A stretch of 64,000 nucleotides of DNA from Ignavibacteria bacterium (GTDB lineage: Bacteria > Bacteroidota > Ignavibacteria > Ignavibacteriales > Ignavibacteriaceae), in NCBI GenBank assembly GCA_030684555.1, contig JAUXVN010000112.1:124001-188000 (forward strand), read 5' to 3'. Made by a program: the position numbers and the translations under genes. The notes below the pieces were generated by a model, which worked only from the letters and a program-made list of their open reading frames with translations, did not search any database and had not been told where the DNA came from. Shown here piece after piece: positions 32,794 to 47,710 of the stretch; position 1 is the first letter of the stretch; each line of letters starts with the position of its first letter.

Positions 32794-32832
32794 AAAAAGC
32801 CATCAGGATATTTATAACTCTGATGGCTTTTT
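32794..32832. terminator. Bidirectional intrinsic terminator
   Basis: AAAAAGCCATCAG at 32794-32806 pairs perfectly with CTGATGGCTTTTT at 32820-32832 around a 13-base loop. The A-tract and T-tract make it work for both strands: it ends the HIT gene on the plus strand and the respiratory operon on the minus strand. Confidence 0.9.
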
Positions 32833-32866: not shown

Positions 32867-34213
32867 CTAGTATTTCTTCACTTCTTCCAAAACATATTTT
32901 GCTACAGCCTTAGCTTCATTTGGTTTCAAACCTTGAGAAGGCATTGGGGGGAAAGCTGGATCCACTTTTACAGGATTGTTTATAAATTGAACCAACTTAT
33001 CTACATTCCCTTCATACTTAACCAAAACATCCTTATGAGCTGGACCAACAAGCTTTTTATCAAATTGATGACATGCTGCACACTTGGTGGCATAAATATC
33101 CGCGCCACTTATCGCACCAATTCCACCTGCTGATGTTTTAAGTTCTTTAAGAGATTTTTCAAAATCTGCGGTAAGTACAACCGAATGTTTTTTAGTAGAA
33201 TTATTTAATCCAATCTGATCAGATATTACAAAAAATATGAGTGTAAAGAGAACAAGAATAAAAACCCAACCGGAAAATCTGACATGATTATTCTTGATCA
33301 TATCGTAGAGAAGATGAAAAACAAGAAATAATATAAACAGCCCCGTTAGCACAAAACCAAATAATGATGTTGATAATGCTGCAGATGGTAAAGCAAAAAT
33401 ATTAAGTAAAGCAACAAATGGTAAAACAACTGCATTTATAAGCGTATGAGTTAGAGCTGTCTTTTTTACAAAATCAGAATAATCCTTTGGTAAATCTTTT
33501 ATTCCACCTTCCCAGAAAAAGAAATTGAACAATACCAAAGCACCTGTTATTAAAAATGAACCAATAAGAAAATGAATCCATTTTAGAAATATTTCCCATG
33601 ATGTGAACAGTAGCAAAATACCACTTTTCGCTCCCCAAGTTTCTGACGAAAGAGCTGCAGTCAATCCGGCTATATAAAAATAAGTAGCGATATAAAGGAA
33701 AATAATTCCCCATAAACCGCTTTTATCATTAACTACTTCTGCCCTTTTTGAATATGATTTAAACTGTTGTTTTAAATCTTCATTTGCGTTTGATTCATTT
33801 GTAACAGCTTTAAACATATCTTTGAAGGTTATTGAATATCGGTAAACATAAATGTAAACGAGTCCGCTGGTCATGGAAATCAATGAAACCATTAAATACC
33901 AGACTGATGGAGATTGAGTAGTATGTAGTAATTGTGTAAAGATTAATATTAAAGCAAGTATGGGAACTATTCCTAAGATAACTCCGGTACTTTTATTAAC
34001 TGTACAAATTTCAATTATATCTTTTGAAAAACGGGTAAAATTTGAATTATCCTCTTTTATTCCTCTTCTTTTATAGATAAGTGATAAAGTTGAACCTCCC
34101 AAAACAATGCTAATAAACGGAAGGAAAAGAAATAGAATTAAAAGAGTCATATAATGCAGTAATGCAATATGCTCGGCAGATTGAGGAAGAACTAACTTAT
34201 CTAAAAATTCCAT
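32867..34213 (-). CDS. Polytopic membrane protein with C-terminal cytochrome c domain
   Basis: A 448-residue protein of two parts. Residues 1-330 contain about nine hydrophobic segments with no family name I can give with certainty. Residues about 355-448 form a class I cytochrome c domain with one heme site, CAACH (near 375), a distal methionine candidate in FPPMPSQGLK, and a C-terminal helix (AKAVAKYVLEEVKKY). It is the last gene of the ACIII/oxidase locus, 24 bases after ctaB, so it most likely carries electrons within this chain, to or from the oxidase. The CtaC subunit here has no cytochrome c domain of its own, and this protein could supply it. That role is inference from position. Confidence 0.75.
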   Translation of the reverse strand: MEFLDKLVLPQSAEHIALLHYMTLLILFLFLPFISIVLGGSTLSLIYKRRGIKEDNSNFTRFSKDIIEICTVNKSTGVILGIVPILALILIFTQLLHTTQSPSVWYLMVSLISMTSGLVYIYVYRYSITFKDMFKAVTNESNANEDLKQQFKSYSKRAEVVNDKSGLWGIIFLYIATYFYIAGLTAALSSETWGAKSGILLLFTSWEIFLKWIHFLIGSFLITGALVLFNFFFWEGGIKDLPKDYSDFVKKTALTHTLINAVVLPFVALLNIFALPSAALSTSLFGFVLTGLFILFLVFHLLYDMIKNNHVRFSGWVFILVLFTLIFFVISDQIGLNNSTKKHSVVLTADFEKSLKELKTSAGGIGAISGADIYATKCAACHQFDKKLVGPAHKDVLVKYEGNVDKLVQFINNPVKVDPAFPPMPSQGLKPNEAKAVAKYVLEEVKKY

Positions 34214-34237: not shown

Positions 34238-35110
34238 TTATAAAAAAATGAAAAGTCTCTCAATAGAAACAGACAACATTATATAAATAACGAATAAATT
34301 TATTTCTCTGAACGCATATTTAAATTCTATTCTTTCAACATCTTTACTTAAAAGATGTGAGACTTTATATATTAACCATACAGCAGCCGCGATAATAACA
34401 AAACTTGCGTAAGAAATTTTAATCACATTGAATAAAGGAAGTAGAAAACTTGTAACTGCAACAGCGAATGTCCATATAAATGTGATTCTTGCAAGCTGCT
34501 CTTTGGAGAAAATTTGAGTCAATGTCGGAAAACCAGCTTCTTCATAATCTTTTCCGAAGACCAATAGTAGCAGCCAGAAGTGCGGTATTTGCCAGATAAA
34601 AAAGAAGAAAGCGATTAAAATTATTTGTGGGTCAAATATATTTCCACCACCGGCAACCCATCCAACTACAGGAGGAATTGCACCGATCAATGAACCTGGA
34701 ATAATTGCTAAAGCTGTCCTTTTTTTAAGAGGTGTATAAACACCATTGTACCAGAATAAAGCAAGCAATCCGAGTAATGCTGGAAGCAGACCTGATGCAA
34801 TTAGTAATATTAAAAATCCTGATAGAAAAAGAAGAGTAAACAAAATCAATACTTCTTTTTCAGAAATTAATTTTGCAGGGATTGGTCGAGATTTCGTCCG
34901 TTCCATTTTTGCATCAGTGTCTCTTTCCTGGTAGTGATTCAGTACTGCTGATGAACAAGCAAGCAGAAGAATTCCTAAAGTTGGAAGTATTAATCCTAAT
35001 GAAATACCTCCCGATGCAAGGATATAACCAAAAGAAGTCGTAATCATCACAAAGGATGTTATTCTGATTTTGGTCAGTTCAAGGATAATATGTAAATAAT
35101 TTCTCTTCAA
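34238..35110 (-). CDS. ctaB: Protoheme IX farnesyltransferase (heme O synthase)
   Basis: A 290-residue UbiA-superfamily membrane prenyltransferase with about nine helices. The first Asp-rich motif NHYQERDTDAKMERTKSRP is the diagnostic CtaB/CyoE signature, and the GAIPPVVGW stretch after the second loop is also typical. It farnesylates heme B to heme O, the precursor of heme A for the adjacent oxidase. A heme A synthase (ctaA) is not present in the window. The start is TTG at 35110, 2 bases after the ctaC stop, with no clear ribosome site, which suggests translation coupled to ctaC. Confidence 0.93.
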   Translation of the reverse strand: MKRNYLHIILELTKIRITSFVMITTSFGYILASGGISLGLILPTLGILLLACSSAVLNHYQERDTDAKMERTKSRPIPAKLISEKEVLILFTLLFLSGFLILLIASGLLPALLGLLALFWYNGVYTPLKKRTALAIIPGSLIGAIPPVVGWVAGGGNIFDPQIILIAFFFFIWQIPHFWLLLLVFGKDYEEAGFPTLTQIFSKEQLARITFIWTFAVAVTSFLLPLFNVIKISYASFVIIAAAVWLIYKVSHLLSKDVERIEFKYAFREINLFVIYIMLSVSIERLFIFL

Positions 35111-35112
35111 AC

Positions 35113-35757
35113 TTATTTTATGCTTGTTGTATCAGTCAATGTAGTATTCATTTTATTTGTCGCATCAGTAAACCAACTATTAAACTCATTCTCCGGCATT
35201 ATAACAACTTTTGAATACATGTAAGAATGCTGCAAACCACAATACTCTGCACAAGCAATATCGAATGAACCTGTATTCTCAGCTTTGAACCATAAAAAGT
35301 TTTCTCGATTTGGAATTACATCTCTTTTTATTCTTAGTGCAGGAATATAAAATGAATGATTTACATCTACAGAGACTAAATCAATTTTTACCGGTTTATT
35401 TACAGGGACGTATAATGTATCTGATTTCAGTCCATTATCATATTCATAAGTCCATTTCCACATTTGCCCAGTAGATTTAACAACCATGGAATCTTCAGGT
35501 GGATTGGATAAATCCTGATATCCCATCCAGCCAAAATAAAACATTGCCAATGTTAGAAGAACAGGAATTAGAGTCCATATAATTTCAAGAGGTAAATTTC
35601 CATGAATATTAACAGCTTTAACTTGTTTTTTTCTATTATACTTAATGACAAAGAAAACCATTAAAAATGAAATTACTACAAGTAGAGCAAAGGAAATCCC
35701 TACTATAAACCAAAAAGCAAAATCTACCGACTCAGCGTATGTTGAATTTGGAAACAT
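35113..35757 (-). CDS. ctaC: Cytochrome c oxidase subunit II
   Basis: A 214-residue subunit with two N-terminal transmembrane helices and a periplasmic cupredoxin domain. The Cu-A ligands are visible: the histidine in VDVNHSFYIPALRIK, and CAEYCGLQHSYM, which supplies two cysteines, the glutamate, a histidine and the methionine. There is no CxxCH, so this is an aa3-type subunit and not a caa3-type fusion with cytochrome c. Electrons must therefore reach Cu-A from another cytochrome, and three separate c-type domains are coded in the same locus. It starts 12 bases after ctaF. Confidence 0.93.
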   Translation of the reverse strand: MFPNSTYAESVDFAFWFIVGISFALLVVISFLMVFFVIKYNRKKQVKAVNIHGNLPLEIIWTLIPVLLTLAMFYFGWMGYQDLSNPPEDSMVVKSTGQMWKWTYEYDNGLKSDTLYVPVNKPVKIDLVSVDVNHSFYIPALRIKRDVIPNRENFLWFKAENTGSFDIACAEYCGLQHSYMYSKVVIMPENEFNSWFTDATNKMNTTLTDTTSIK

Positions 35758-35769
35758 CTGATTTTCCCT

Positions 35770-36063
35770 TTACATAAAACTATAATCTGCAAAAAGTAAA
35801 ACAAAAGAAATCAATAAAAAGAGTAATGCAACTCCAACAAAAATTGAAAATACTTTTGATTCACTTTTCAAGTGCATAAATATTGTTAATACTAAATATG
35901 ATTTAATGCTTGCAATCAGCAATGCTGTTGCAACAGTCAATCCGCCGAAATCAATTCCGGCAACCGCAACCGTTACACCGGTTAAAATGAGCAGTGCCAA
36001 CCAAACTATTATATAAATTCCGTAATGCGGTGTATGTTTTTCGCTATGTGAATGATTTTCCAT
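35770..36063 (-). CDS. ctaF: Cytochrome c oxidase subunit IV-type small protein
   Basis: A 97-residue membrane protein with three hydrophobic helices (IYIIVWLALLILTGVTVAVA, ATALLIASIKSYLVLTIFMH and VGVALLFLLISFVLLFADY). The histidine-rich cytoplasmic N terminus and the KSYLVLTIFMHLKSE stretch match prokaryotic COX4 proteins of aa3/caa3 oxidases. Its position between ctaE and ctaC supports this. It is thought to stabilise the oxidase and has no redox centre. Confidence 0.88.
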   Translation of the reverse strand: MENHSHSEKHTPHYGIYIIVWLALLILTGVTVAVAGIDFGGLTVATALLIASIKSYLVLTIFMHLKSESKVFSIFVGVALLFLLISFVLLFADYSFM

Positions 36064-36072
36064 AAAAATTCC

Positions 36073-36693
36073 TTATGTAATCAGATAGAATAATGGGAAT
36101 AAGAAAATCCAAATTATATCTACAAGATGCCAATATAATCCAGCTGCTTCAAGTCTGACATAATTATCTGACGTTATTCTGTTCTTCGAAGTAAAATATG
36201 TCATAGTTCCAATTAGTACTACTCCAATTATAACGTGAAGTCCATGTAAACCAGTCATAATGTAATATAGTCCAAAGAATAAAATTTCGCCATTACTCTT
36301 TTCCATTAATACATCCGAACCTGGAAATAGTCCATGATGAAATTTGGCAGACCATTCAAAAAATTTATTCACCATAAAAGCTAATGCAAATACGATAGTA
36401 GTTAACTGTAAAAAGATTGATAATCCTTTTTGATTCTTTTGCAAAGCTGTGATTGATAAAGCCATTGTTAAACTACTTGTTAATAGAATAATCGTATTTA
36501 ATGTACCGAACAACGTATTTAATTCTTTTGCTGCAAGATGAAATTCTTGTTGATGCGTAAATCGGTAAATGGCATAAACAATAAACATACCTCCGAATAA
36601 AATCAATTCGGTAAATAAGAAAAGCCACATTCCAAGACGCGATCCTATGTCATCTCTATGGACGTGAGCTATACCATGTTCTGAACTGCTCAA
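36073..36693 (-). CDS. ctaE: Cytochrome c oxidase subunit III
   Basis: A 206-residue membrane subunit with five predicted helices, the usual short bacterial form lacking the first two helices of the mitochondrial protein. Features are LGMWLFLFTELILFGGMF at the start, the central YYIMTGLHGLHVIIGVVLIG with conserved histidines, and YWHLVDIIWIFLFPLFYL at the end. The start is TTG at 36693: AAGGAGG stands only four bases upstream and the codon overlaps the ctaD stop, so the non-ATG start looks genuine. Subunit III supports proton uptake and stability of subunit I. Confidence 0.92.
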   Translation of the reverse strand: MSSSEHGIAHVHRDDIGSRLGMWLFLFTELILFGGMFIVYAIYRFTHQQEFHLAAKELNTLFGTLNTIILLTSSLTMALSITALQKNQKGLSIFLQLTTIVFALAFMVNKFFEWSAKFHHGLFPGSDVLMEKSNGEILFFGLYYIMTGLHGLHVIIGVVLIGTMTYFTSKNRITSDNYVRLEAAGLYWHLVDIIWIFLFPLFYLIT

Positions 36694-38345
36694 TTTACCT
36701 CCTTAACTTCTGTATTGCTTAGATCATTATCTTTATATTGATATGGATCTGTTTCAATAATAGGAATCTCATCAAAATTTTCTAATGGTGGAGGTGTGGG
36801 TACGTGCCATTCAAGTGTTTCGCCACCCCATGGATTCATCTCATTAGTTTTCTCCCCTTTTAGAAGAGCATGAATAAAGTTGGCGAACATGATGATTAAT
36901 CCGGTAATCAAAATCCATGAACCAACAGTCGAAATGAAATGATAAATTTGATATTCAGGTAAATAATCATAATATCTTCTTGGCATTCCCAACCAACCCA
37001 TCACAAACATCGGAAAATAAAGTACATTGAATCCTACAAAGAGGATCCAGAATCCTACTTTGGCTGATTTCATGTTGTATTTTCGAGCGAACATCTTTGG
37101 AAACCAATAATGGAGTGCTGCAAAAATTCCAAAACCGGTTCCACCAAACATAACATAGTGGAAATGTGCAACTATAAATGAAGTATCATGAATGTGCATG
37201 TTTACAGAAAGTGAACCTTGAATCAATCCTGTAAAACCACCAATCGAAAAAAGAAATATAAATGCTAACGCATATAGTAATGGCGGATCTGTTGATATTG
37301 ATCCTTTATACAAAGTAGCTACCCAGTTGAAAACTTTTACGGCACTCGGAATAGCAACGAGAAATGTTAGAAGTGAGAATATAAACATTGCTGCCCCGCT
37401 CATTCCAACAGTAAACATATGATGTGCCCAAACCATTGAACCAAATAAAGCAATCGCAATACTTGAAAATGCAATAAATTTATATCCAAAAATCGTTCTA
37501 TGTGCAAAGACAGGAATAATTTCTGAAATTACTCCCATCGCAGGAATAATCATAATGTACACAGCAGGATGAGAATAAATCCAAAATAAATGTTGAAATA
37601 AAACAGGATCTCCACCTAAAGCGGGATCAAAAATTCCGAATCCGAAAGCTCTTTCAAATATTACAAGAAGTAGAGTTATACCAATTATTGGGGTAGCCAG
37701 AACCTGTATCCATGCGGTAGAATAGATTGACCAAACGAATAAAGGCATTTTGAACCAATCCATCCCCGGAGCCCTCAACCTATGAATTGTTGTAACAAAA
37801 TTTAATCCGGTTAATATCGATGAAAAACCAAGAACGAATGCCGCTAATAATGCCGGGAAAACATTTGTAGAAGTCCTTACACTATAAGGAATATAAAATG
37901 TCCATCCTGTGTCCACCGGTCCACCGGGTAAAAACACTGCAATTATTGCAAGCAGACCACCAATTATAAATAACCACCATGACAACAAATTCAATCGAGG
38001 AAATGAAACATCTTTCGCACCAAGCATGATCGGTAAAAAGAAGTTCCCAAATACTGCCGGTAATCCGGGAATAATAAATAAAAATATCATTATTATTCCG
38101 TGCAGTGTGAAAAACGAGTTGTACGTCTGAGGATCCATAATCGTTTTACCGGGAGCAATTAACTCAAGCCGCATTAAAAATCCAAAAGTTACGCCAACCA
38201 CAAAAAAGATAAGCATAGCAATTAAGTATAAAATACCTATTCTCTTATGATCGGTAGAAAATATCCAGGATTTTAATCCTGTTCCCTTTCCTCTATAATC
38301 TAAATAACTTTCATAACCATTGTTTGACGAAGAATGACTTGTCAT
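36690..38345 (-). CDS. ctaD: Cytochrome c oxidase subunit I (A2-type, YSHPxVY)
   Basis: A 551-residue catalytic subunit with twelve helices. Heme and Cu-B ligands are recognisable in the YSHPAVY helix (near residue 258), the AHHMFTVGM region and HDTSFIVAHFHYVM. The helix VI motif reads YSHPAVYIMIIP instead of GHPEVY, so the D-channel glutamate of A1-type oxidases is absent and the Tyr-Ser pair of the A2 subfamily is present, as in Rhodothermus and Thermus-like caa3 enzymes. It reduces O2 to water and pumps protons. It lies 3 bases downstream of the Sco gene and overlaps ctaE by 4 bases. Confidence 0.95.
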   Translation of the reverse strand: MTSHSSSNNGYESYLDYRGKGTGLKSWIFSTDHKRIGILYLIAMLIFFVVGVTFGFLMRLELIAPGKTIMDPQTYNSFFTLHGIIMIFLFIIPGLPAVFGNFFLPIMLGAKDVSFPRLNLLSWWLFIIGGLLAIIAVFLPGGPVDTGWTFYIPYSVRTSTNVFPALLAAFVLGFSSILTGLNFVTTIHRLRAPGMDWFKMPLFVWSIYSTAWIQVLATPIIGITLLLVIFERAFGFGIFDPALGGDPVLFQHLFWIYSHPAVYIMIIPAMGVISEIIPVFAHRTIFGYKFIAFSSIAIALFGSMVWAHHMFTVGMSGAAMFIFSLLTFLVAIPSAVKVFNWVATLYKGSISTDPPLLYALAFIFLFSIGGFTGLIQGSLSVNMHIHDTSFIVAHFHYVMFGGTGFGIFAALHYWFPKMFARKYNMKSAKVGFWILFVGFNVLYFPMFVMGWLGMPRRYYDYLPEYQIYHFISTVGSWILITGLIIMFANFIHALLKGEKTNEMNPWGGETLEWHVPTPPPLENFDEIPIIETDPYQYKDNDLSNTEVKEVN

Positions 38346-38348
38346 ACG

Positions 38349-39137
38349 TTATTCACCTTTATTAATCTTCTCTTTATGACGAGGTTTAATTGAAATAAAT
38401 ATAACATAAACTAATGCAAATAAAATTGTTATTGATGCTGCTATGCGTGTTACGTTTAACGCATATTTTTTACCCTCTGCATCATAACTAAAACAAAATT
38501 TTAACATTTTTGCTATTGTCGGTGTAACTTTACCCTCTGATGCTTCAATTATTGCCATCTTAATATCAAATGGCAAAAATGTTGTACCCGGAAGATATCT
38601 TGTAATTTTTCCATCCGGCGCTAAAAAAATTAGAGCACCTGCATGAAGAAAATCTTTTCCTTCTCTCTTAAAATAAAATCCAACAGCATCAGTAGCTTTT
38701 CTTATGTTTGTACTGTCACCAGTTAAAAATCTCCAGGAAGCCGGATCAATTCGTTTCTTTATCGCATTTAAAAAAGCTTTCTTTTTTCTGTTTGCGAGTT
38801 CTGATGTTTCTAATTGATCAAATGAAATAGAAACAATTTGATAATCAACTCCCGGAATTAAATCTACTTTATTAACTAATGAAGCAACCTCGGACATTAA
38901 TGGATTACAAATACCGGGACATTCATAATAAACAAACATCAATATTGTCGGTTTGGAAATAATATCTTTGAGTTGAATTATGTTTCCTTCTTCATCATTG
39001 AATAATATTTCAAGTGGAAACTGTTCACCCAGCTTCTCATCTATTCCAACTTTGACATTCTCTTGTTGTCCATTTATCTTTGCGATAAACACTAAAAAAA
39101 AGAGCAATAGAAATATTTTATTATTTTTACTCCGCAT
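38349..39137 (-). CDS. SCO1/SenC family copper chaperone
   Basis: A 262-residue Sco protein with an N-terminal signal/anchor (FLLLFFLVFIAKINGQ), a thioredoxin-like periplasmic domain and a C-terminal transmembrane helix (IAASITILFALVYVIFISI) near residues 230-250. The copper site is complete: CPGIC in VYYECPGICNPLMSEV and the distal histidine in DFLHAGALIFLAPDG. It is expected to deliver copper to Cu-A of CtaC. The C-terminal anchor in addition to an N-terminal signal is less common for Sco proteins. It lies directly upstream of ctaD in the operon. Confidence 0.88.
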   Translation of the reverse strand: MRSKNNKIFLLLFFLVFIAKINGQQENVKVGIDEKLGEQFPLEILFNDEEGNIIQLKDIISKPTILMFVYYECPGICNPLMSEVASLVNKVDLIPGVDYQIVSISFDQLETSELANRKKKAFLNAIKKRIDPASWRFLTGDSTNIRKATDAVGFYFKREGKDFLHAGALIFLAPDGKITRYLPGTTFLPFDIKMAIIEASEGKVTPTIAKMLKFCFSYDAEGKKYALNVTRIAASITILFALVYVIFISIKPRHKEKINKGE

Positions 39138-39172: not shown

Positions 39173-40099
39173 TTAAGCAATTACTTGTTTCAATAGGTTA
39201 AAAAGTTCGCGTAATTGCTGACTACTTAAATTAATTACTTCTGAACTGAATCCGTTAACTATCACCTCATTCGTAATAACTTGAGAAAAATCTTTTTCAC
39301 TTCTCATTGAATTATTTGAATTAAGTATAGTTAAAATTGCTTTTTCCGAATCTATCGAAATATCAAAAAATAGCTGTGCAGTCGCATTTGAAGTTTTCAA
39401 TTCATTAATCTTTGCAATCGTATTTATAATTTTCTGCGACTTTGGTAATGCTTCCTTTTGAATAAGAACACTCGCATTATTCACGGGGATAGTACCGGCA
39501 ACTTTCATCCCTGCGGAGAGACTATATGCCTTATCAAGCTCTGCTATTTCTTGCGGGGAATCAGATGGAGCATTACTCATAAAATTTTTACGAATGAACT
39601 GAATTATTGCGGTTCTTTCTTCTACTGCCATATAGTCGTAGGCAGGCATTCCAGTTACAGTTATACCTTTTTCCAGAGTATTATACATCTCGAAGAATTT
39701 TCTTCCATTTTTCCATCCTGTTTCTTCATGGAAATTTCTTGGTTTAGGATTGAAGGCAACACCGGCTACACCATCGCCCTTCCCTTCAACTCCGTGGCAT
39801 GACGAACAAACTGTTGTATAAAGATTTTTCCCTTTTTCTATCATCTCATTATTAGGGGAAGAGATTTGGGATAAATCAATCGCTGATGCAATTCTTGGTT
39901 CTTGAATAGTCAATTTTGAAACAACAACCGATGTATCAGGAGCAACCGGGTTCAAACTATTCCTGGACATTTGTTCATTATTAAATAAATAAATAAACCC
40001 GATTCCAATAACTGCAATCAAAAATATCGGATATGCAGTCGCAATTATATAAAATGGTTTTTCTAAAAGTTTGTCAATCGAAAATTTCGGTTTTTCCAT
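39173..40099 (-). CDS. Membrane-anchored monoheme cytochrome c
   Basis: A 308-residue protein with one transmembrane anchor near the N terminus (PFYIIATAYPIFLIAVIGIGFIYLF, residues 16-40) and a periplasmic cytochrome c domain at about 80-175. The heme site is CSSCH followed by GVEGKGDG, and a methionine ligand candidate is in GMPAYDYM. The C-terminal 130 residues have no recognised domain. Situated between actF and the Sco/oxidase genes, it is a good candidate for the electron carrier linking ACIII to the oxidase. It is distinct from the heme domain fused to ActD. Confidence 0.82.
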   Translation of the reverse strand: MEKPKFSIDKLLEKPFYIIATAYPIFLIAVIGIGFIYLFNNEQMSRNSLNPVAPDTSVVVSKLTIQEPRIASAIDLSQISSPNNEMIEKGKNLYTTVCSSCHGVEGKGDGVAGVAFNPKPRNFHEETGWKNGRKFFEMYNTLEKGITVTGMPAYDYMAVEERTAIIQFIRKNFMSNAPSDSPQEIAELDKAYSLSAGMKVAGTIPVNNASVLIQKEALPKSQKIINTIAKINELKTSNATAQLFFDISIDSEKAILTILNSNNSMRSEKDFSQVITNEVIVNGFSSEVINLSSQQLRELFNLLKQVIA

Positions 40100-40117: not shown

Positions 40118-41305
40118 TTATAATCTGAAATTAAGTCCACGTTCAAGTTTTGGATCACCAACCGGAACCATATTTGTTTTTTTAGAATTAAAATAAAACA
40201 ATAAAATTATCCCACCTACCGCAGCAACCGGAAAGGATAATCCAAGTACGAAATTAAGTAAGGTCGATTCTCCCTTGAATGTTGGAAGGATTAACCAATA
40301 CAAGTCTAATAGATGCGCAAATAAAATCCAAAGAGAGGCAAATTTTAACTTCTTTGCATCCATTTTTGCTGGCTGCGATAATAAGATAGAATAAGGGACT
40401 ATAAAGTGAACAAAAATTAATGCTAATGAAATATAAATCCATGAACCCTGCCATCGTGCTAAAAACCAAAAAGTTTCCTCCGGCAAATTAGCATACCATA
40501 TTAACATATATTGAGAAAAAGCGATATATCCCCAAAAATTTACAAATACAAATAACAGAGATCCTAAACTATAATAATGATCTTTTACCATTCTGGGATG
40601 TAAATAACCCCCCTCGCGAAGTTTTACAGTCGCATAAGTAATAACGGCAAGTGCTGATAATACAGAACCGGAGAAAAAATAAACTCCAAAGATTGTTGAA
40701 AACCAATGAGGTTCAAGACTCATCATCCAGTCTATTGAAGCGATCGAAGCTGTTATTGCGAATAAAGGTATAAATACAGCTGATAACCTTATATTAACTC
40801 TTGTTAGGTTTTGATCTTTTGAAATATCTTGTTTTCTCGAATTTCTTGTTAATAAGAAATAGAATAACGTCCACAGGGCAAAAACTATTGCAACTCTTAT
40901 GAAGAAAAAAGTCTGATTTAAATAAGGTGCTTTCTCTTTTAGAATTTTATCACTCTCAACTACTTCGGTGTGTGACCAGTGAAAAAGAGTGTGCATATTT
41001 AATAGGATTGGTATTGCAAGAATAATTAGAAATGGAGTAATAGATGCAGTAAATTCGATAACTCTTCTGAGTGGTGTACTCCAATCTGCTCCGGCAACAT
41101 ATTCTAACGATATTAGAAATAGTGCACCAACACCAATGCTCATTAAAAACATAAATCCTAATAAATAATTAAACGCTGCTTGCTCAGCGTTTAGTAGGAA
41201 TGCACCGGCACCACCTATTACACCAATACCGATTAATAGAAATCCAATCTTTTGGAGACTTGTTGGTAAATCTTTTTTTATATAATTCAAATTACTCTGA
41301 GACAT
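40118..41305 (-). CDS. actF: Alternative complex III subunit ActF
   Basis: A 395-residue membrane protein with about ten helices, matching the ActF (quinol:cytochrome c oxidoreductase quinone-binding subunit 2) family in length and in features such as SLEYVAGADWSTPLRRVIEF and ASIDWMMSLEPHWFSTIFGVY. ActF and ActC are related to NrfD-like membrane subunits. The ATG at 41305 lies within the end of the preceding ActD-ActE gene (14-base overlap), with AGGAG ten bases upstream. It works with the rest of ACIII to oxidise quinol and reduce a c-type cytochrome, replacing the bc1 complex. Confidence 0.92.
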   Translation of the reverse strand: MSQSNLNYIKKDLPTSLQKIGFLLIGIGVIGGAGAFLLNAEQAAFNYLLGFMFLMSIGVGALFLISLEYVAGADWSTPLRRVIEFTASITPFLIILAIPILLNMHTLFHWSHTEVVESDKILKEKAPYLNQTFFFIRVAIVFALWTLFYFLLTRNSRKQDISKDQNLTRVNIRLSAVFIPLFAITASIASIDWMMSLEPHWFSTIFGVYFFSGSVLSALAVITYATVKLREGGYLHPRMVKDHYYSLGSLLFVFVNFWGYIAFSQYMLIWYANLPEETFWFLARWQGSWIYISLALIFVHFIVPYSILLSQPAKMDAKKLKFASLWILFAHLLDLYWLILPTFKGESTLLNFVLGLSFPVAAVGGIILLFYFNSKKTNMVPVGDPKLERGLNFRL

Positions 41306-42458
41306 TAGTTACAGGCTCCTTTTTTATCTCTTGAATATCAGCCTCGCTTGCATTTTTTGCTCGCTGTAAAACTCTGATGTAATTTACAATCGCCCATCTT
41401 TCCTCGCGGCTTAATTGAGATGAATAAGATGGCATAACATTTTGACCATTAACTATAACATGATATAAATTTCCGTCCAACCAATCGCGTGATTTTGAAG
41501 AATGAAGACTTGGCGGTAGTGGAAACTGTCCCCGCAATCGACTGTCACCATCACCAAGATTTCCATGACAGGGAGAACAGAAAGAATTGTACTTCTTTTC
41601 ACCTAAAGATAAATTTTCTTTTGTCGGTAAGTATGGATTAGATAGAGGTGAAGTTGGCTCATTCACTCCTTGATATTCGTAAGGCATAAATCCTCTCGCC
41701 ACAGTCCCTTTAACAGGATTTCGCATACCAAATTTATCACCAAATAATTCTGAACTTGACTGAACATCTAATCTCCCTTGATCCATCATCCAATTAAATG
41801 GTACGAGATATAAAACTTTATTCAGATGAAGATATGTTGAAACTGAGACAAATGCAGCAACAATTAATAAAAGTCCAATAAACTTCGGTTCTAATATTTT
41901 TACATTAAGTTTATCTGGAAAGAAAATCTTCTCAATTTTGATTGCTCCCAAATCGGTGAACAATTTGTTTATTTCTTCCTCATTAAATTTTTCATCATCA
42001 GCCTCAATACAAAGACCGAATTTATCAATCGAAACACTTTTCATATAATTGGTATCGTGAATCGGGTGACTATTATTAGGGAAGTAGAAAAAGAATGTAA
42101 CCATACCAATGACAGTAGAAAGTGTTGCAAGTAAAACCGTCAACTCAAATGTAACCGGAATAAAAGCGGGTAACGAGAAAAACGGTTTTCCACCGATTAT
42201 CATTGGATAATCTATAGTCATTGTCCAATACATAAATAATAATGCAATCGCAGCACCAGAAAGTCCAAATGCCAGTGTAACAAACCCAAGTTTGGATGGG
42301 GGCAACTTCATTGCTTTGTCCATTCCATGTACAGGATAAGGTGAATGAACATCAAAATTTTTATAACCTTTATCAGTAACAGTTTTTGCTGCTTTAATAA
42401 TTGCATTCGGTGAATCATAGAGTGCAGCTATTCCAAATACTTTTTTATTCTGTTCCAT
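41292..42458 (-). CDS. actDE: ActD-ActE fusion: DUF3341 domain plus cytochrome c
   Basis: A 388-residue protein joining two ACIII subunits that are usually separate. Residues about 8-175 are ActD (DUF3341), with VFGIAALYDSPNAIIKAA, two transmembrane helices and SIDKFGLCIEADDEKF. Residues about 195-385 correspond to ActE: a membrane anchor (FIGLLLIVAAFVSVSTYLHL), the GTVARG segment, and the monoheme site CSPCHGNLGDGDSR, ending in the IVNYIRVLQR helix. There is no frameshift and the link region is short. A strong GGAGGTGATC-type ribosome site stands before the ATG at 42458, which overlaps the actC stop. The gene symbol describes the fusion rather than an established name for this locus. Confidence 0.88.
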   Translation of the reverse strand: MEQNKKVFGIAALYDSPNAIIKAAKTVTDKGYKNFDVHSPYPVHGMDKAMKLPPSKLGFVTLAFGLSGAAIALLFMYWTMTIDYPMIIGGKPFFSLPAFIPVTFELTVLLATLSTVIGMVTFFFYFPNNSHPIHDTNYMKSVSIDKFGLCIEADDEKFNEEEINKLFTDLGAIKIEKIFFPDKLNVKILEPKFIGLLLIVAAFVSVSTYLHLNKVLYLVPFNWMMDQGRLDVQSSSELFGDKFGMRNPVKGTVARGFMPYEYQGVNEPTSPLSNPYLPTKENLSLGEKKYNSFCSPCHGNLGDGDSRLRGQFPLPPSLHSSKSRDWLDGNLYHVIVNGQNVMPSYSSQLSREERWAIVNYIRVLQRAKNASEADIQEIKKEPVTNVSE

Positions 42459-43831
42459 TAATGATCACCTCCGTTATGAGAAGGTTGTGCACCCTCTGCA
42501 ACAGCCTTCACTTCAGAAATTGAAACGACTGGTAAAGTTTTAGTAAACAATAAAACTAAGGTAAAGAATAGTCCGAAACTTCCTATCAATACTCCAAAGT
42601 CAACTAATGTGGGAGTGTAATAGCCCCAACTTGATGGGAGAAAATCTCTGTGTAGTGAGGTAACAGTAATTACAAATCTTTCAAACCACATACCGATATT
42701 TACAAAAATAACAATCATTAGCATTATCGGGATTGACCTCCTTATTTTCTTAATCCAGAAAAACTGAGGGAAAATCACATTACAACTAACCATTATCCAA
42801 TATGCCCAAGCATACGGACCAAAAGCTCTATTTATAAATACGAATTGTTCAATAGGATTTCCACTGTACCAAGCTATAAAAAACTCCATCGCATATGCAT
42901 AACCAACCATCATACCTGTTGCAAGAATCACTTTATTCATCTTTTCGAGATGATTTATAGTTATAATATTTTCGAGATCAAATATTTTCCTAACAAAAAT
43001 CAATACTGTTACAACCATTGCAAAACCAGAAAAGATAGCTCCCGCAACAAAATATGGAGGGAAAATTGTTGTATGCCAACCCGGGAGAATTGATACAGCA
43101 AAGTCAAAAGAAACGATTGTATGAACTGATAACACTAACGGAGTAGCAAAACCTGCCAATAACATATACGATTTTTCATAATGCTGCCAATTACGATGTG
43201 AGTGTCTCCATCCCAAACTAAAGATTGAATAAATGACTTTCTTAATTTTGGAAGCTGTTGTGTCTCGCAATGTTGCAAAATCCGGTATTAAACCGACATA
43301 CCAAAAAACTAATGATACTGCAAAATATGTTGATACCGCAAAAACGTCCCAAATAAGTGGAGAGGAAAAATTGACCCATAAACTATGTTGGTTTGGATAA
43401 GGAAGTAAGTAAACTACTGCAACCCACATTCTACCCGTATGAAGAATCGGGAAAATTGCGGCACACATAACAGCAAATATTGTCATTGCTTCTGCAAAAC
43501 GTGCAATACCTGTTCTCCACTTTTGTCTTAAAAGAAAAAGAATTGCCGAAATAAGAGTTCCTGCATGACCGATACCAACCCAAAAAACGAAATTTACAAT
43601 ATCAAACGCCCAACCAACCGGTTGATTGTTTCCCCACATTCCGATTCCGTAATAAAGAGTAAGAGCAACGCTAATTGCTCCTATAAAAAGTAAAGAAAGA
43701 GTAAACGAAAGGGCAATAAAATATTTTTTATTAGGTCGTTCATCCATCGGGCGTGCAATAAGGTCATTAATTTCCCTTAAAGTAAGCCTGCCTTCGACTA
43801 CCGGTAATTCTTGAGAATAATCAATATTCAC
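42458..43831 (-). CDS. actC: Alternative complex III subunit ActC (NrfD/PsrC-like)
   Basis: A 457-residue membrane protein with about ten helices, of the NrfD/PsrC family. [19 protein letters not shown] contains the conserved histidine of the quinol site, and [12 protein letters not shown] and [20 protein letters not shown] are typical of ActC. It provides the main quinol-binding site and is thought to take part in proton translocation. The start is GTG at 43831, preceded by GGAGG at seven bases and overlapping the actB stop by one base, so a non-ATG start is well supported. Confidence 0.94.
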
Positions 43832-46800
43832 TATACTTCCTCCGAAAAAGTATTTCGTAATTTGGCGAGATATGTAACATTCGGTTTTACGTTTATTTCT
43901 TCTAAAACTACATAGCCAAGTTGATGATTTCGATATTTAGATAATTTCGATTCAACATCATTCATATCACCAAAAACAATAGCTTCTGTTCCACATGCTT
44001 CCTGACAAGCGGTGCTCACATCCGTACCTTTGATTGTAGTATTCTTCTTTGTTGCTTCTTGACGCGCTTCCATAATTCTTTGAATACAGAAAGTACATTT
44101 TTCCATTACACCACGTGATCTTACTGTAACTTCCGGATTCATAACTAATTCAAATGATGCTTGTTCCTGGTAACCCCCTCTAAAATGATCTCTAAAATTG
44201 AAGAAATTATATCTTCTCACTTTATAAGGACAGTTATTTGAACAGTATCTTGTCCCAACACATCTGTTGTAAACCATTTGATTCAAGCCATCATCACTAT
44301 GAGTTGTTGCTACAACAGGACAGACATTTTCACATGGTGCATGATCACAATGTTGACATAACATTGGCTGTATACTAACTTTTGGATTTTCAGGTGTTCC
44401 CGAATAGTATCTATCTATTCGCAGCCAGTTCATCTCACGTCCGAGGGCAACTTGATCTTTCCCAACAACAGGAATATTATTTTCAACATTGCAAGCAACT
44501 ACACAATCGCCACAACCTAAACATTTGTTGAGGTCAATAGACATAGCCCATTTAACTCCTTTATACTCAAAATCCTTGTACATGTTAACCGCATCATGTT
44601 TCTTTTCATGAATAAAGTTTGGATTTTTATTGTATTGAGAAAGAGTCCCCTCTTGTATGATATTTCTTTTTAAGTGAATATCTTGAATTAAAGTATCATC
44701 AAACGTATGATGATCCTGTGTTGAAACAATCTCATAAGTTCCGTTCACTTTACTAATTGATGCTCCGGTCAATATCCATCTTGATAGTGAACTGTTTTTA
44801 GATAAAAGTATATTAGCATTAAAACCAACTTCGTTAGCAACAACCGGCGAATTAGTTCTACCATATCCTAAGTCAACAGCTATCATCTCATCTGCTACAC
44901 CGGGCTGAATTAGTATCGGCAATTTTAATTTGTTACTATTATATGTAACTTCTATTAAATCATTTGTTTTAAGTGAAAGTTTTTTTGCGGTAGATTCTGA
45001 TATCGCTGCATAATTATCCCAGGTAACTTTTGTTACCGGATGAGCTAACTCTTGTAACCATCCGTTGTTTGAAAATCGACCGTCACCTATTGTATAGCTT
45101 TCTTGTAAAGTTACTGTATAACCGGCTTTGCTCTCACTTTGATTATCCAACTGTGTTAAAGCAACTTGAGAAAAGTTATAACTAATCTGTTGTTTTTCAT
45201 TAATTTTCGCAACACCATCGTGTAAAATACCAGCCCAATATCTTTCAAAATCAAAGAGAGAATTTAAAGCAGGATATATTGTTGATTTCCAATTATTCTT
45301 TAGATAATCAACATAAATAGTTTCCGAAAAATTCTTAGAATCACCAGATAACCAGGTTAATAATACGGCTTCTTTTTGTCTCGTGTTATATAGGGGAGAA
45401 ATTACAGGTTGAACCAAAGAATAAAAACTTGTTCTAACTTTAACATCACCCCATGACTCAAAATTGTGATTGATTGGTAAAACAAAATTACTTAATGCAG
45501 TTGTTTCATTAATTGATGTTGCAAATGTTATAACAGTTGATTTAGAAATAGCATCCCAATATTTAAACTCTGCCGGCAGGTGATAAACAGGATTTGTATC
45601 GAAATGGATAACTGCTTTAACCTTGCCCGCATTAATATTAGCTGTTAACTTTTCAAATCCAATATAATCAGTAAGATTTGAATTTATCAAGGCTTCATTA
45701 TTATTATACAAGGTAGTATTACCAAGAGTCTCATTTAAAAGATTCACTGCTATCTGAACCTTTTCACTTAACGAACGTCCGGCATAAACAATTGATTTAC
45801 CTTTATTTTTAATAAGGTCGCTCACTAAACTATTTAAAACATCTTTGGACAGTCCATACTTTTTAGATATAGTATCAAGAGTAAAAGTTGACAAAATTGA
45901 AACAGAATTGTTATCAAGAGAAATTTGTGAAACTTTTTTATTCAGAATAATTTCATTTAATAATCCCATTACAAAATCGTATTGTGCATCCGGTTTTAAT
46001 CTCAATCGATAATCCGCATTCATTCCGGTTAGTGTTAAATTACCTTCAACTACATAGAGGCGGTTAAAATTACTCCCTTTCATTATATCTCTTTTTTCGG
46101 AGTAGAGACGAACTTGTTCAACTTTATTCCCTTCAATACCTAAAAAATCACCTTCAAGAGAAAGAATGACTTCAGCTTCATTCCATTTTATTAGAGGAAA
46201 GTTCTGCTGGTTATAACATTTTTGCCATGCTGAATTTTTAATAAAGTTATCAAAAAGTTCATAAGAATAAATTTGTGTTTCAGGGTATTTTATTTTGAAG
46301 TCGTCAAACAATTTTTGAGTTGTAGGGGAAATAATTGAGTGAGTAACAATTGCGATTTCTTTTGATGGATCGCTATTTAAAACTTTCAAAATCTCTTGAT
46401 CGGTTGTCTTCCAATCACTAGTACTGAAACTCCCGCCTCTTTTGAGCATCGGGGTTTGTAAACGGGATGGATCATAAAGATCAAGGATACTTGCTTGACC
46501 TTTTGCACAAGTTTTACCTTTGCTTACCGGATGATCAGGATTTCCATCAACTTTAATTGGTCTCCCTTCACGGGTTTTAATCAAAATACCACATGCGTTT
46601 TCACATGATAAACAAGTTGAAGCATAATAATTTGCTTTGCCAATAATAATTTCTTCAGACTTTTTGTTGTAAGGTATTATTTCACCTTTATCACGATAAT
46701 CAGAGCATCCGGCTCCGGCTAAAGCCGCTGAAGCACCGAGAAGAGCTAAAAATTTTCTTCTCGATAATCCTGAAAGATTTTTATCTATTTCAAAATCGTC

Positions 46801-46932
46801 AGTTACACCATCTTTAAATTCATCTAATTTAGATTTGAGTGTATTTTCATCTTTGTAAAGTTCTTCAAAACTTCTCCAATAATTCGGATCAGATTGGTTC
46901 TCATGATTTTTGTTGTCAAAATTTTCAGACAT
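43831..46932 (-). CDS. actB: Alternative complex III subunit ActB (molybdopterin-like plus Fe-S)
   Basis: A 1033-residue periplasmic iron-sulfur subunit. The twin-arginine motif [10 protein letters not shown] is near residue 57 and is followed by AGAGC, a possible lipobox. The N-terminal part resembles molybdopterin oxidoreductases ([19 protein letters not shown]) but in ACIII lacks the cofactor. The C-terminal part (from about 795) has the ferredoxin-like sets [35 protein letters not shown] and CTFC...ACQEAC, for three [4Fe-4S] and one [3Fe-4S] cluster. The 57-residue region before the twin arginines is normal for ActB. I chose the ATG at 46932 (AGGTG six bases upstream) rather than the GTG three codons earlier. 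It overlaps the small upstream gene. Confidence 0.93.
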
Positions 46933-47128
46933 TATTAGCACCTGTCATTTTTCTTTTTACAGAAAGCGGATTTAATGAGACTTTTAATTTTGTCGGCTTA
47001 TCTTTTTTCATAATAAATTTTATTGGAGAAAAAGAAAACAACATCAATCCGGTTAACCCAATTCCTACTGATGCAAAGAATTTCTTTCGTTCTATTTTTT
47101 TTATTTCTTTTTTAACTATTTCACTCAT
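46925..47128 (-). CDS. 67-residue single-helix protein between actA and actB
   Basis: A small gene not part of the textbook ActA-F set. It has a canonical GGAG five bases before its ATG, starts 12 bases after actA, and its stop overlaps the start of actB, so it is almost certainly translated. The protein has a basic N terminus with ERKKFFASVGIGLTGLMLFSF, which is a Tat-like or anchor segment with one transmembrane helix, followed by a short basic tail (KLKVSLNPLSVKRKM). There are no cysteines or histidines, so it carries no metal or heme. The N-terminal pattern resembles that of ActB and of Rieske-type anchors. It may be an extra structural subunit or an assembly factor of ACIII. Confidence 0.7.
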   Translation of the reverse strand: MSEIVKKEIKKIERKKFFASVGIGLTGLMLFSFSPIKFIMKKDKPTKLKVSLNPLSVKRKMTGANNV

Positions 47129-47140
47129 CTTAACTCCAAA

Positions 47141-47710
47141 TCAACGATGACAAGCCCAACAATTGTCGGGACCTTTATTAACTTGTTTTAAATATGGCAG
47201 ATTAGCCTGGGCATTTCGGTGACATGACAAACAATCCCCCATTGTGAATGGTTTTATTTGACTAACTTTTTCCATTTCTTCAACCGGACCGTGGCATGTT
47301 TGGCATTCAATTCCTTTAGTAACATGAGAACTATGATTAAAATAAGCATAGTCCGGAACTTTATGAATTCTTTTCCAGGGAATTGGCGTCCCATCGTTAT
47401 AATATTTTGTTAATTTGATTATTTCGGGTCGGTCTTTTCTTGCAATGGTATGGCAGTTCATACAAGTTGAAACAACCGGAATTGAGGCGTGTCGGGTTTT
47501 TTCAACAGTAGTATGGCAATATAAACAATCAATTTTCATTTGCCCTGCATGGAGAGCGTGCGAAAAATTGATTGGCTGTTCAGGAGCATATCCAACACCG
47601 TCTCTTTCGGATCTTGATGCAAAATATGTGATTGCAAATGAAAGAACTGCTACAAATAGAACAATTGGTAACCTTATTCGCAGTATGTAGTCAATAAAAT
47701 TATTTGACAT
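47141..47710 (-). CDS. actA: Alternative complex III subunit ActA, pentaheme cytochrome c
   Basis: A 189-residue multiheme cytochrome with one N-terminal transmembrane anchor (LPIVLFVAVLSFAITYFA). Five CxxCH heme sites are present: CLYCH, CMNCH, CQTCH, CLSCH and CWACH, the last at the C terminus. Extra histidines (NFSHALHAGQM, YFNHSSHVTKG) can serve as distal ligands for bis-His hemes. Five hemes and about 20 kDa match ActA of ACIII. It is the first gene of the respiratory operon; the promoter must lie in the 216 bases upstream. Confidence 0.94.
   Translation of the reverse strand: MSNNFIDYILRIRLPIVLFVAVLSFAITYFASRSERDGVGYAPEQPINFSHALHAGQMKIDCLYCHTTVEKTRHASIPVVSTCMNCHTIARKDRPEIIKLTKYYNDGTPIPWKRIHKVPDYAYFNHSSHVTKGIECQTCHGPVEEMEKVSQIKPFTMGDCLSCHRNAQANLPYLKQVNKGPDNCWACHR

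Follow-up and report, generated by a model that had tools for sequence, protein, structure and literature searches.

In R. marinus, the ActE heme has been placed near the cytochrome c domain of the caa3 oxidase, and the ActA subunit of F. johnsoniae has an additional cytochrome c domain, apparently in place of the one in caa3 (PMC5928083, available text). The contact between alternative complex III (ACIII) and the oxidase is made in F. johnsoniae by subunit III, according to the available text of PMC8361435. For Melioribacter roseus, whose description is the source of the A2 type of oxidase, the accessible portion of the paper (PMC5492636) reports ActDE as a fusion of ActD with cytochrome c and names MROS_0033 as a class I soluble cytochrome c551/c552, which proteomics detected in aerobic cells only, as it did CoxI, CoxII, ActC and ActDE. 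OR-N bd-like oxidases have been described for Nitrospirales and Nitrospinota (PMC12342949, PMC10839748, available sections). In the titles and abstract openings covered, for the most part those of papers outside subscription, no bd-like subunit is described in an ACIII-aa3 operon.

Operon context of the target gene and its M. roseus ortholog

The locus lies in a 64,000-nucleotide stretch of Ignavibacteria DNA (the window), in which a minus-strand ACIII-aa3 oxidase operon runs in the order ActA, ActB, ActC, ActDE, ActF-like, cytochrome c (39173), SCO, CtaD, CtaE, CtaF, CtaC, CtaB and, as the final gene, the one under study, hereafter the target (Table 1). ActD is fused to a cytochrome c domain, as in M. 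roseus. The first-pass annotation had placed the gene at the end of the oxidase operon, which is confirmed, and the gene is real: the frame encodes 448 residues, opens with ATG and is separated by 24 nt from the end of CtaB, and its N-terminal Met is invariant in 29 aligned homologs. CtaC contains COX2 domains and CuA-type motifs, the latter read by eye in the sequence, and has no cytochrome c match in Pfam; it therefore appears to be a cytochrome c oxidase subunit that has no cytochrome c of its own. An inverted repeat between the convergent target and HIT genes is a possible two-way terminator; a terminator scan found none at this place, where the loop of 13 exceeds the limit of 8 used by the scan.

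Table 1. Features of the target gene and its operon, in window positions.
Feature	Position	Strand	Basis
Inverted repeat with A and T runs, possible two-way terminator	32794..32832	.	Read directly; between convergent target and HIT genes
Target gene: bd-superfamily membrane domain and c551-type cytochrome c domain, 448 aa	32867..34213	-	ORF, Pfam, model, fold and profile match
Monoheme c551-type cytochrome c domain, residues 367-448	32870..33115	-	Pfam; PDB c551/c552
Met424	32942..32944	-	Invariant in 29 homologs
CXXCH heme c motif, residues 378-382	33068..33082	-	C378, C381 and H382 invariant in 29 homologs
Linker with helix 341-361, residues 341-366	33116..33193	-	Model; pLDDT <50 at 363-366
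Membrane domain, residues 1-340, eight TM helices, bd-type fold	33194..34213	-	DSSP of model; VIA Z 23.0-25.9
Phe30 in TM1, column of the histidine conserved in OR-N-like subunits	34124..34126	-	Alignment
CtaB, UbiA-family, heme O synthase by position	34238..35110	-	PF01040
CtaC, oxidase subunit II, 214 aa, without cytochrome c domain	35113..35757	-	COX2 domains (Pfam), CoxB (NCBIfam)
CtaF, oxidase subunit IV	35770..36063	-	PF03626
CtaE, oxidase subunit III	36073..36693	-	PF00510
CtaD, oxidase subunit I	36690..38345	-	PF00115
SCO1/SenC copper protein	38349..39137	-	PF02630
Second monoheme cytochrome c	39173..40099	-	PF00034
ActF-like subunit, named from operon order	40118..41305	-	Position; no Pfam match at E 0.001
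ActD fused to cytochrome c domain (ActDE)	41292..42458	-	PF11821 and PF13442
ActC, NrfD family	42458..43831	-	PF03916
ActB, iron-sulfur and molybdopterin-family subunit	43831..46941	-	PF04879, PF12838
ActA, multiheme cytochrome c	47141..47710	-	PF14522, PF02085

The target is not a chance reading frame, because its membrane part is matched, at a threshold of at least 230 bits, in 73 of the 149 genomes of a class sample, which identifies a conserved subunit for a membrane part that lacks a family assignment. ActC is matched at E 1e-100 or better in 67 of these 73 target genomes and CoxB in 71; contig gaps may explain the six genomes without a strong ActC match (G156, G293, G310, G331, G341 and G347). 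A scan of genome contigs yielded 153 relatives among 173 candidate stretches, and 80 loci were kept. Most relatives are labelled Ignavibacteria or families thereof, and the rest are Bacteroidetes or unplaced MAGs, with one Deltaproteobacteria. All matches better than 1e-50 in a phylum sample fall in the class of the target itself, and the protein of L132 is, among the matches listed, the sole match outside the class over most of the membrane part.

The exact order SCO-CtaD-CtaE-CtaF-CtaC-CtaB-target is found in 52 of the 57 loci with at least 6 kb of upstream sequence. L040 keeps the same order, since its SCO shares a frame with cytochrome c; CtaB is missing at its usual place in L094, L105 and L108; and the operon of L098 lacks SCO, CtaD, CtaC and CtaB. 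The other thirteen loci without CtaD all have less than 2.5 kb of upstream sequence.

By gene order and sequence, the M. roseus ortholog of the target is MROS_0033, and the M. roseus operon matches the seven-gene order Mros0039-0033 given in the available text of the M. roseus paper. The published assignment differs from what the gene encodes, which is a 453-residue frame that includes the membrane domain; 'soluble' therefore cannot hold for the whole of MROS_0033, and the 'soluble cytochrome' assignment is corrected accordingly. For the window protein, a single soluble heme domain is likewise excluded, as eight transmembrane-length helices precede the cytochrome c domain in the model.

Architecture and kinship of the membrane domain

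The AlphaFold2 model of the target (pLDDT 89.1, pTM 0.76) was built on alignment A1 of 29 homologs, which left out L002 (a cytochrome match only) and L026 (cut by a contig end). DSSP of the model gives eight transmembrane-length helices (residues 13-54, 74-95, 103-138, 145-188, 206-232, 243-274, 282-308 and 314-339) and two further helices at residues 57-70 and 341-361. The latter two look like a surface helix and a linker helix, respectively, so the nine membrane helices counted in the first-pass annotation are an overcount, while its polytopic membrane part ending in a monoheme cytochrome c domain stands. This class I domain (residues 369-442; PF13442, PF00034) has its nearest PDB matches among c551/c552-type cytochromes. 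Of 114 target ORFs (a set of rows that includes repeats and L026), 113 contain the heme c motif, and Met424 is, by analogy with c551, presumably the sixth heme ligand. Positive residues fall between helices 1-2, 3-4, 5-6 and 7-8. The even helix number, which leaves both ends on the same side, and positive loops that fit the cytoplasm would place the cytochrome domain on the periplasmic side of the modelled protein.

The membrane part had been called unrecognised, which is true of the family libraries. Cytochrome c domains are the sole Pfam families found in more than two of 29 members among the matches listed, NCBIfam returns only cytochrome c for the window protein and nothing for its membrane part, and a PDB sequence search gives cytochrome c matches and a few weak others, with the membrane part not consistently matched. 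PF01654 (Cyt_bd_oxida_I) has no match in the window protein at E up to 1 and is absent among the best 25 of 39 families for the 29 members, where any further match would concern one member at E above 0.13. Pfam finds no COX2 domain in the target, which therefore does not have the layout of caa3 subunit II. Membrane urate oxidase (PF06181) is a polytopic protein with a C-terminal cytochrome c; this identity was rejected, as PF06181 has no match at E up to 1 in the window protein.

In contrast to the family libraries, fold search and profile comparison do recognise the membrane part, and they point to the cytochrome bd superfamily. Foldseek with the model is ambiguous (best E 5.3e-4, with chains A and B of bd entries mixed). 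VIA with the model, which lists one row per entry, returns cytochrome bd for all of the ten best entries (Z 23.0-25.9, 297-310 residues, 3.2-3.6 Å), and the top match has a Z of 25.9 over 307 residues. We take the matched bd chains to be subunit I from their chain letter and length. The next group consists of ACIII and PsrC subunits, with Z of at most 18.9.

For profile comparison, two bd-like sets of nine rows each, the CydA-like and the CydA'-like partners, were gathered from the same phylum; alignments A2 and A3 were made without L176A and L181B, respectively. The genes of the two partners are adjacent or close in L132, L134, L173-L178 and L181. A single c motif occurs in eight of the nine CydA-like proteins, and among three CydA-like members scanned with Pfam, Cyt_bd_oxida_I matches that of L174 at 2.6e-14 and leaves those of L132 and L181 unmatched. 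We call these partners OR-N-like for their resemblance to the descriptions in the available text of PMC12342949 and PMC10839748, a label that does not place them in OR-N proper.

By hhalign, the membrane domain of the target matches the CydA'-like set at 99.3% (E 1.3e-20, 309 columns; 99.1% in a repeat with separately made alignments) and the CydA-like set at 80.7%. The CydA'-like set in turn matches the CydA-like set at 97.9% (98.4% with separately made alignments) and canonical CydA at 60.1%, and the CydA-like set matches canonical CydA at 97.8%. The direct comparison of the target with canonical CydA gives only 4.1%. The link to cytochrome bd thus rests on the intermediates and the fold, because the target has no direct profile match to canonical CydA and PF01654 is not among the listed families. 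The controls ActC, ActF, CtaD, CtaB, CtaE and CydB all stay below 1%. Kinship with NrfD/PsrC was rejected on these values (ActC 0.2%, ActF 0.7%) despite the fold scores given above, as was kinship with COX1, COX3 and UbiA (below 1%); direct profile comparison with CydB gave no match (0.1%). The target very probably belongs to the cytochrome bd superfamily, and a close match to an unrelated transporter family, named in the first-pass annotation as a refuting result, was not found.

The likeness to the OR-N-like CydA' extends over nearly the whole membrane domain of the target in the profile match, and the L132 protein has the same layout of a membrane domain followed by a c551-type domain. However, the target differs in lacking the TM1 histidine and the TM8 arginine that are present in all nine CydA'-like rows, and it has an aa3 oxidase as its neighbor instead of an OR-N-like CydA. 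In the alignment, the TM1 histidine is found in 9/9 CydA'-like, 8/9 CydA-like and 0/101 non-identical target rows, which have F (73), L (23), V (2), Y (1), W (1) or a gap (1) at this column. We take this histidine to be the heme ligand of the bd-type oxygen reductase; it probably bound heme in the related subunits, and the membrane domain of the target is presumably heme-free. The TM8 arginine is replaced by D or E in 90 of the 101 target rows. With canonical CydA, the target shares the fold (Z up to 25.9), but differs in the missing TM1 histidine as well as in the profile and PF01654 results. A Q-loop is a further feature of CydA, for which the target has no room, because residues 275-281 alone join TM6 and TM7 in the model.

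These residues also bear on the possibility that the target is still part of a bd-like oxygen reductase whose CydA-like partner is encoded elsewhere. The common superfamily and fold agree with such a role, as do the 11 of 73 target genomes that have a CydA-like OR-N match above 400 bits and the two more that have a partial one. On the other hand, the TM1 histidine is absent throughout the target rows, and none of the 80 loci has an OR-N-like gene near the target in flanks of up to 10 kb, which are shorter at contig ends. In the genome of the window, canonical CydA is the only match that covers the membrane part, and G180 and G039 carry an OR-N-like pair in addition to the target. A need for an OR-N partner was rejected, since the 80 loci contain no such partner and OR-N matches occur in a minority of target genomes, and we regard a remaining bd-like reductase function as very improbable.

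In a tree of 95 rows, the 77 target rows form one group (98/96) apart from the CydA'-like rows, and the CydA-like rows lie on the far side of the CydA'-like rows; the positions of L181B, L175B, L176A and L176B, which have long branches, are unsure. The best non-target match of the cytochrome domain of the target is the c domain fused to the CydA'-like protein in L132 (56.4 bits), followed by a free 142-residue cytochrome that adjoins the CydA'-like gene in L176 (37.2 bits), while CydA-like proteins reach up to 15.1 bits. The fused layout was probably inherited from a bd-like ancestor, because the c domain is closest to the CydA'-fused domain of L132. Derivation from the cytochromes of CtaC or from ActE-like cytochromes is not supported (at most 12.1 and 14.3 bits, respectively).

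Some of the OR-N-like pairs are part of larger clusters. L173 (1376-5925, by Pfam) and L178 (5244-9480, by eye) have CydA'-like, Rieske, cytochrome b and CydA-like genes clustered, which suggests a link between a bc complex and an OR-N-like bd oxidase. An aa3 operon with a cytochrome motif in CtaC continues into bd-like genes in L176 (3167-12190; G016), where a free c551-like cytochrome, CydA'-like, Rieske, cytochrome b and a CydA-like gene without CXXCH follow, so that bd-like and bc genes are interleaved. The OR-N-like pair of L181 (7847-10776; G250) has a CydA'-like member with two CXXCH motifs, which adjoins another protein with two CXXCH motifs.

Cytochromes at CtaC in operons with and without the target

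The first-pass annotation had pointed to co-occurrence with oxidases whose CtaC lacks a cytochrome domain. This is borne out by the target loci: the CXXCH motif is absent from CtaC in 71 of the 74 that have a CtaC ORF, the exceptions being L062, L100 and L101. No separate cytochrome gene lies beside CtaC in the 74 target loci; the one candidate, in L094, is an alternative frame within the target gene itself. For comparison, CtaC regions were collected from 58 genomes out of the 65 that lack the target and match CoxB, which gave 59 CtaC ORFs. Seven genomes with CoxB matches at E 6.9e-27 or worse were left out (G323, G336, G339, G345, G350, G355 and G368), and L258, which bears the target, was set aside.

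In target-less regions with an ActF-like gene, all 17 CtaC proteins contain CXXCH, compared with 1 of 55 in loci with the target and ActF (Fisher 1.3e-15, a value that ignores kinship). Among the 42 target-less CtaC regions without ActF, 24 share a contig with ActC, which lies 8-13 kb from CtaC. CXXCH is present in the CtaC of one of them, L242; each of the other 23, whose CtaC lacks the motif, has a single-motif cytochrome frame directly beside CtaC at a gap of -67 to 88 nt. Thus, 41/41 ACIII-linked target-less operons have a cytochrome at CtaC, as a fusion in 18 and as a neighboring gene in 23, versus 3/74 target loci (Fisher 5.6e-27, which still counts the spurious L094 frame and ignores kinship). 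The simpler contrast of target or caa3 is therefore replaced by a three-way picture, in which the cytochrome is carried by the target, fused to CtaC or encoded in a gene adjacent to CtaC, and the expected co-occurrence is refined by the 23 operons with an adjacent gene. The three arrangements follow lineages.

The remaining 18 target-less CtaC ORFs comprise 7 with an adjacent cytochrome frame and 11 with neither a fused nor an adjacent one (L224, L230, L235, L241, L245, L272-L276 and L278); for these 11, no ActC was found on the same contig among the matches listed. L272-L276 (family f50) are aa3 operons that combine a CtaC without a cytochrome motif, no adjacent cytochrome frame and no target.

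L062, L100 and L101, together with L258 (G366), which is outside the 74, carry both the cytochrome domain of the target and a cytochrome motif in CtaC. The two can therefore coexist, and these four loci may represent intermediates or double relays.

Proposed role of the target and lineages without the oxidase core

We propose, with a probability of about 0.7, that the target is a domesticated bd-superfamily subunit of the ACIII-aa3 assembly, in which the c551 domain replaces the missing CtaC cytochrome as the donor to CuA. The ancestor would have been similar to the CydA'-like subunit of a cytochrome c-dependent bd oxidase of the OR-N-like type, an example of which, in L132, has the same kind of c551 domain, and the ancestral gene would have become the last of the ACIII-aa3 operon in Ignavibacteria. 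The membrane domain, without the TM1 heme histidine, may now act as a scaffold that docks close to ACIII and oxidase subunit III, with the c551 domain held in the periplasm by the helical linker. Electrons would then pass from quinol to ACIII, through ActA, ActDE and the 39173 cytochrome to the c551 domain, and on to CuA of CtaC and heme a-a3, so that the c551 domain would do the job of the fused cytochrome domain in caa3 oxidases.

An electron-entry role of the target is likely, and it suggests a further solution for ACIII-linked aa3 oxidases besides the CtaC-fused domain, the CtaC-adjacent gene and the extra ActA domain. The proposed entry next to CuA and the complementary occurrence are shared with caa3 subunit II, but the target is a separate polytopic protein and its c domain is not closest to those of CtaC. 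The ActA of F. johnsoniae is another remedy for a missing caa3 c domain (PMC5928083, available text), although the domain there is part of ActA, whereas that of the target sits on a bd-derived membrane protein. A bd-superfamily protein appears to be in non-catalytic use within a heme-copper oxidase pathway, and the wiring of ACIII to complex IV where CtaC has no cytochrome becomes testable. Besides the four loci with both cytochromes and the six target genomes without a strong ActC match, further findings count against the proposal: two other monoheme c domains are already available from the same operon, L098 has lost CtaD and CtaC but not the cytochrome domain of the target, and one paralog lies outside any ACIII operon (L133). 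Of the three options offered in the first-pass annotation, a further subunit and an electron-entry protein are favored together, and an independent heme protein is made less likely by the missing TM1 histidine, even though a stand-alone paralog exists.

Subunit III is retained together with the target in two lineages whose operons lack CtaD, and these lie far apart in the tree. The operon of L135 (G216) consists of ActB, ActC, ActDE, ActF, cytochrome c, CtaE and a target frame of 347 residues that ends without any cytochrome; it is followed by a heavy-metal P-type ATPase and, after that, by a fused cbb3 subunit (COX1 and FixO). No CoxB match occurs in the G216 genome; COX1 has two matches there, the fused cbb3 subunit and a 747-residue frame. 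In L098, ACIII and cytochrome c run straight into CtaE, CtaF and a target with its cytochrome domain. The strongest COX1 match in that genome is a 714-residue fused cbb3 subunit (COX1 and FixO), with three weak pieces besides, and CtaD may be located elsewhere in the genome. L135 and L098 indicate that ACIII can keep the membrane domain and subunit III as companions when the oxidase core is missing, and that the cytochrome domain is separable.

The same two loci bear on an alternative in which the target is no fixed subunit and instead acts as a cytochrome c that is tethered to the membrane but diffuses freely, serving as a shuttle between ACIII and several oxidases (aa3, cbb3). The M. roseus study depicts c551/552 as carrying electrons to A-type as well as cbb3 oxidases (PMC5492636, available text), and L098 combines a target that has its cytochrome domain with the loss of CtaD and CtaC from the operon and a fused cbb3 subunit in the genome. 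However, a shuttle would need one anchor and not eight conserved transmembrane helices, the operon order is nearly fixed, and in L135 the membrane domain persists without any cytochrome, which makes a free shuttle unlikely. The position after CtaB and the presence of SCO in the operon could also be read as signs of an assembly factor for heme or copper insertion into the oxidase. Against this, the heme c motif is nearly universal in the target ORFs, the domain resembles the electron-transfer c551, and the target stays in L098 where CtaB, SCO, CtaD and CtaC are lost from the operon; we give an assembly role very little credence.

An extension of the preferred reading, in which the target is a subunit of the ACIII-aa3 assembly, can be offered tentatively. 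The bd subunit without membrane hemes might form a fixed bridge between complexes III and IV, which was kept with subunit III and ACIII after the loss of aa3 and re-fitted to cbb3 by dropping the cytochrome domain; we consider this conceivable and do not favor it. If true, one respiratory enzyme was recycled as the connector of another.

The paralog in L133 (7774-9063, plus strand; G132) is a second, stand-alone copy of the target family. Its neighbors are a c552 nitrite reductase (PF02335), an NapC/NirT-type cytochrome, an Rrf2 regulator and a hemerythrin protein, and this copy possibly has a nitrite- or NO-related role.
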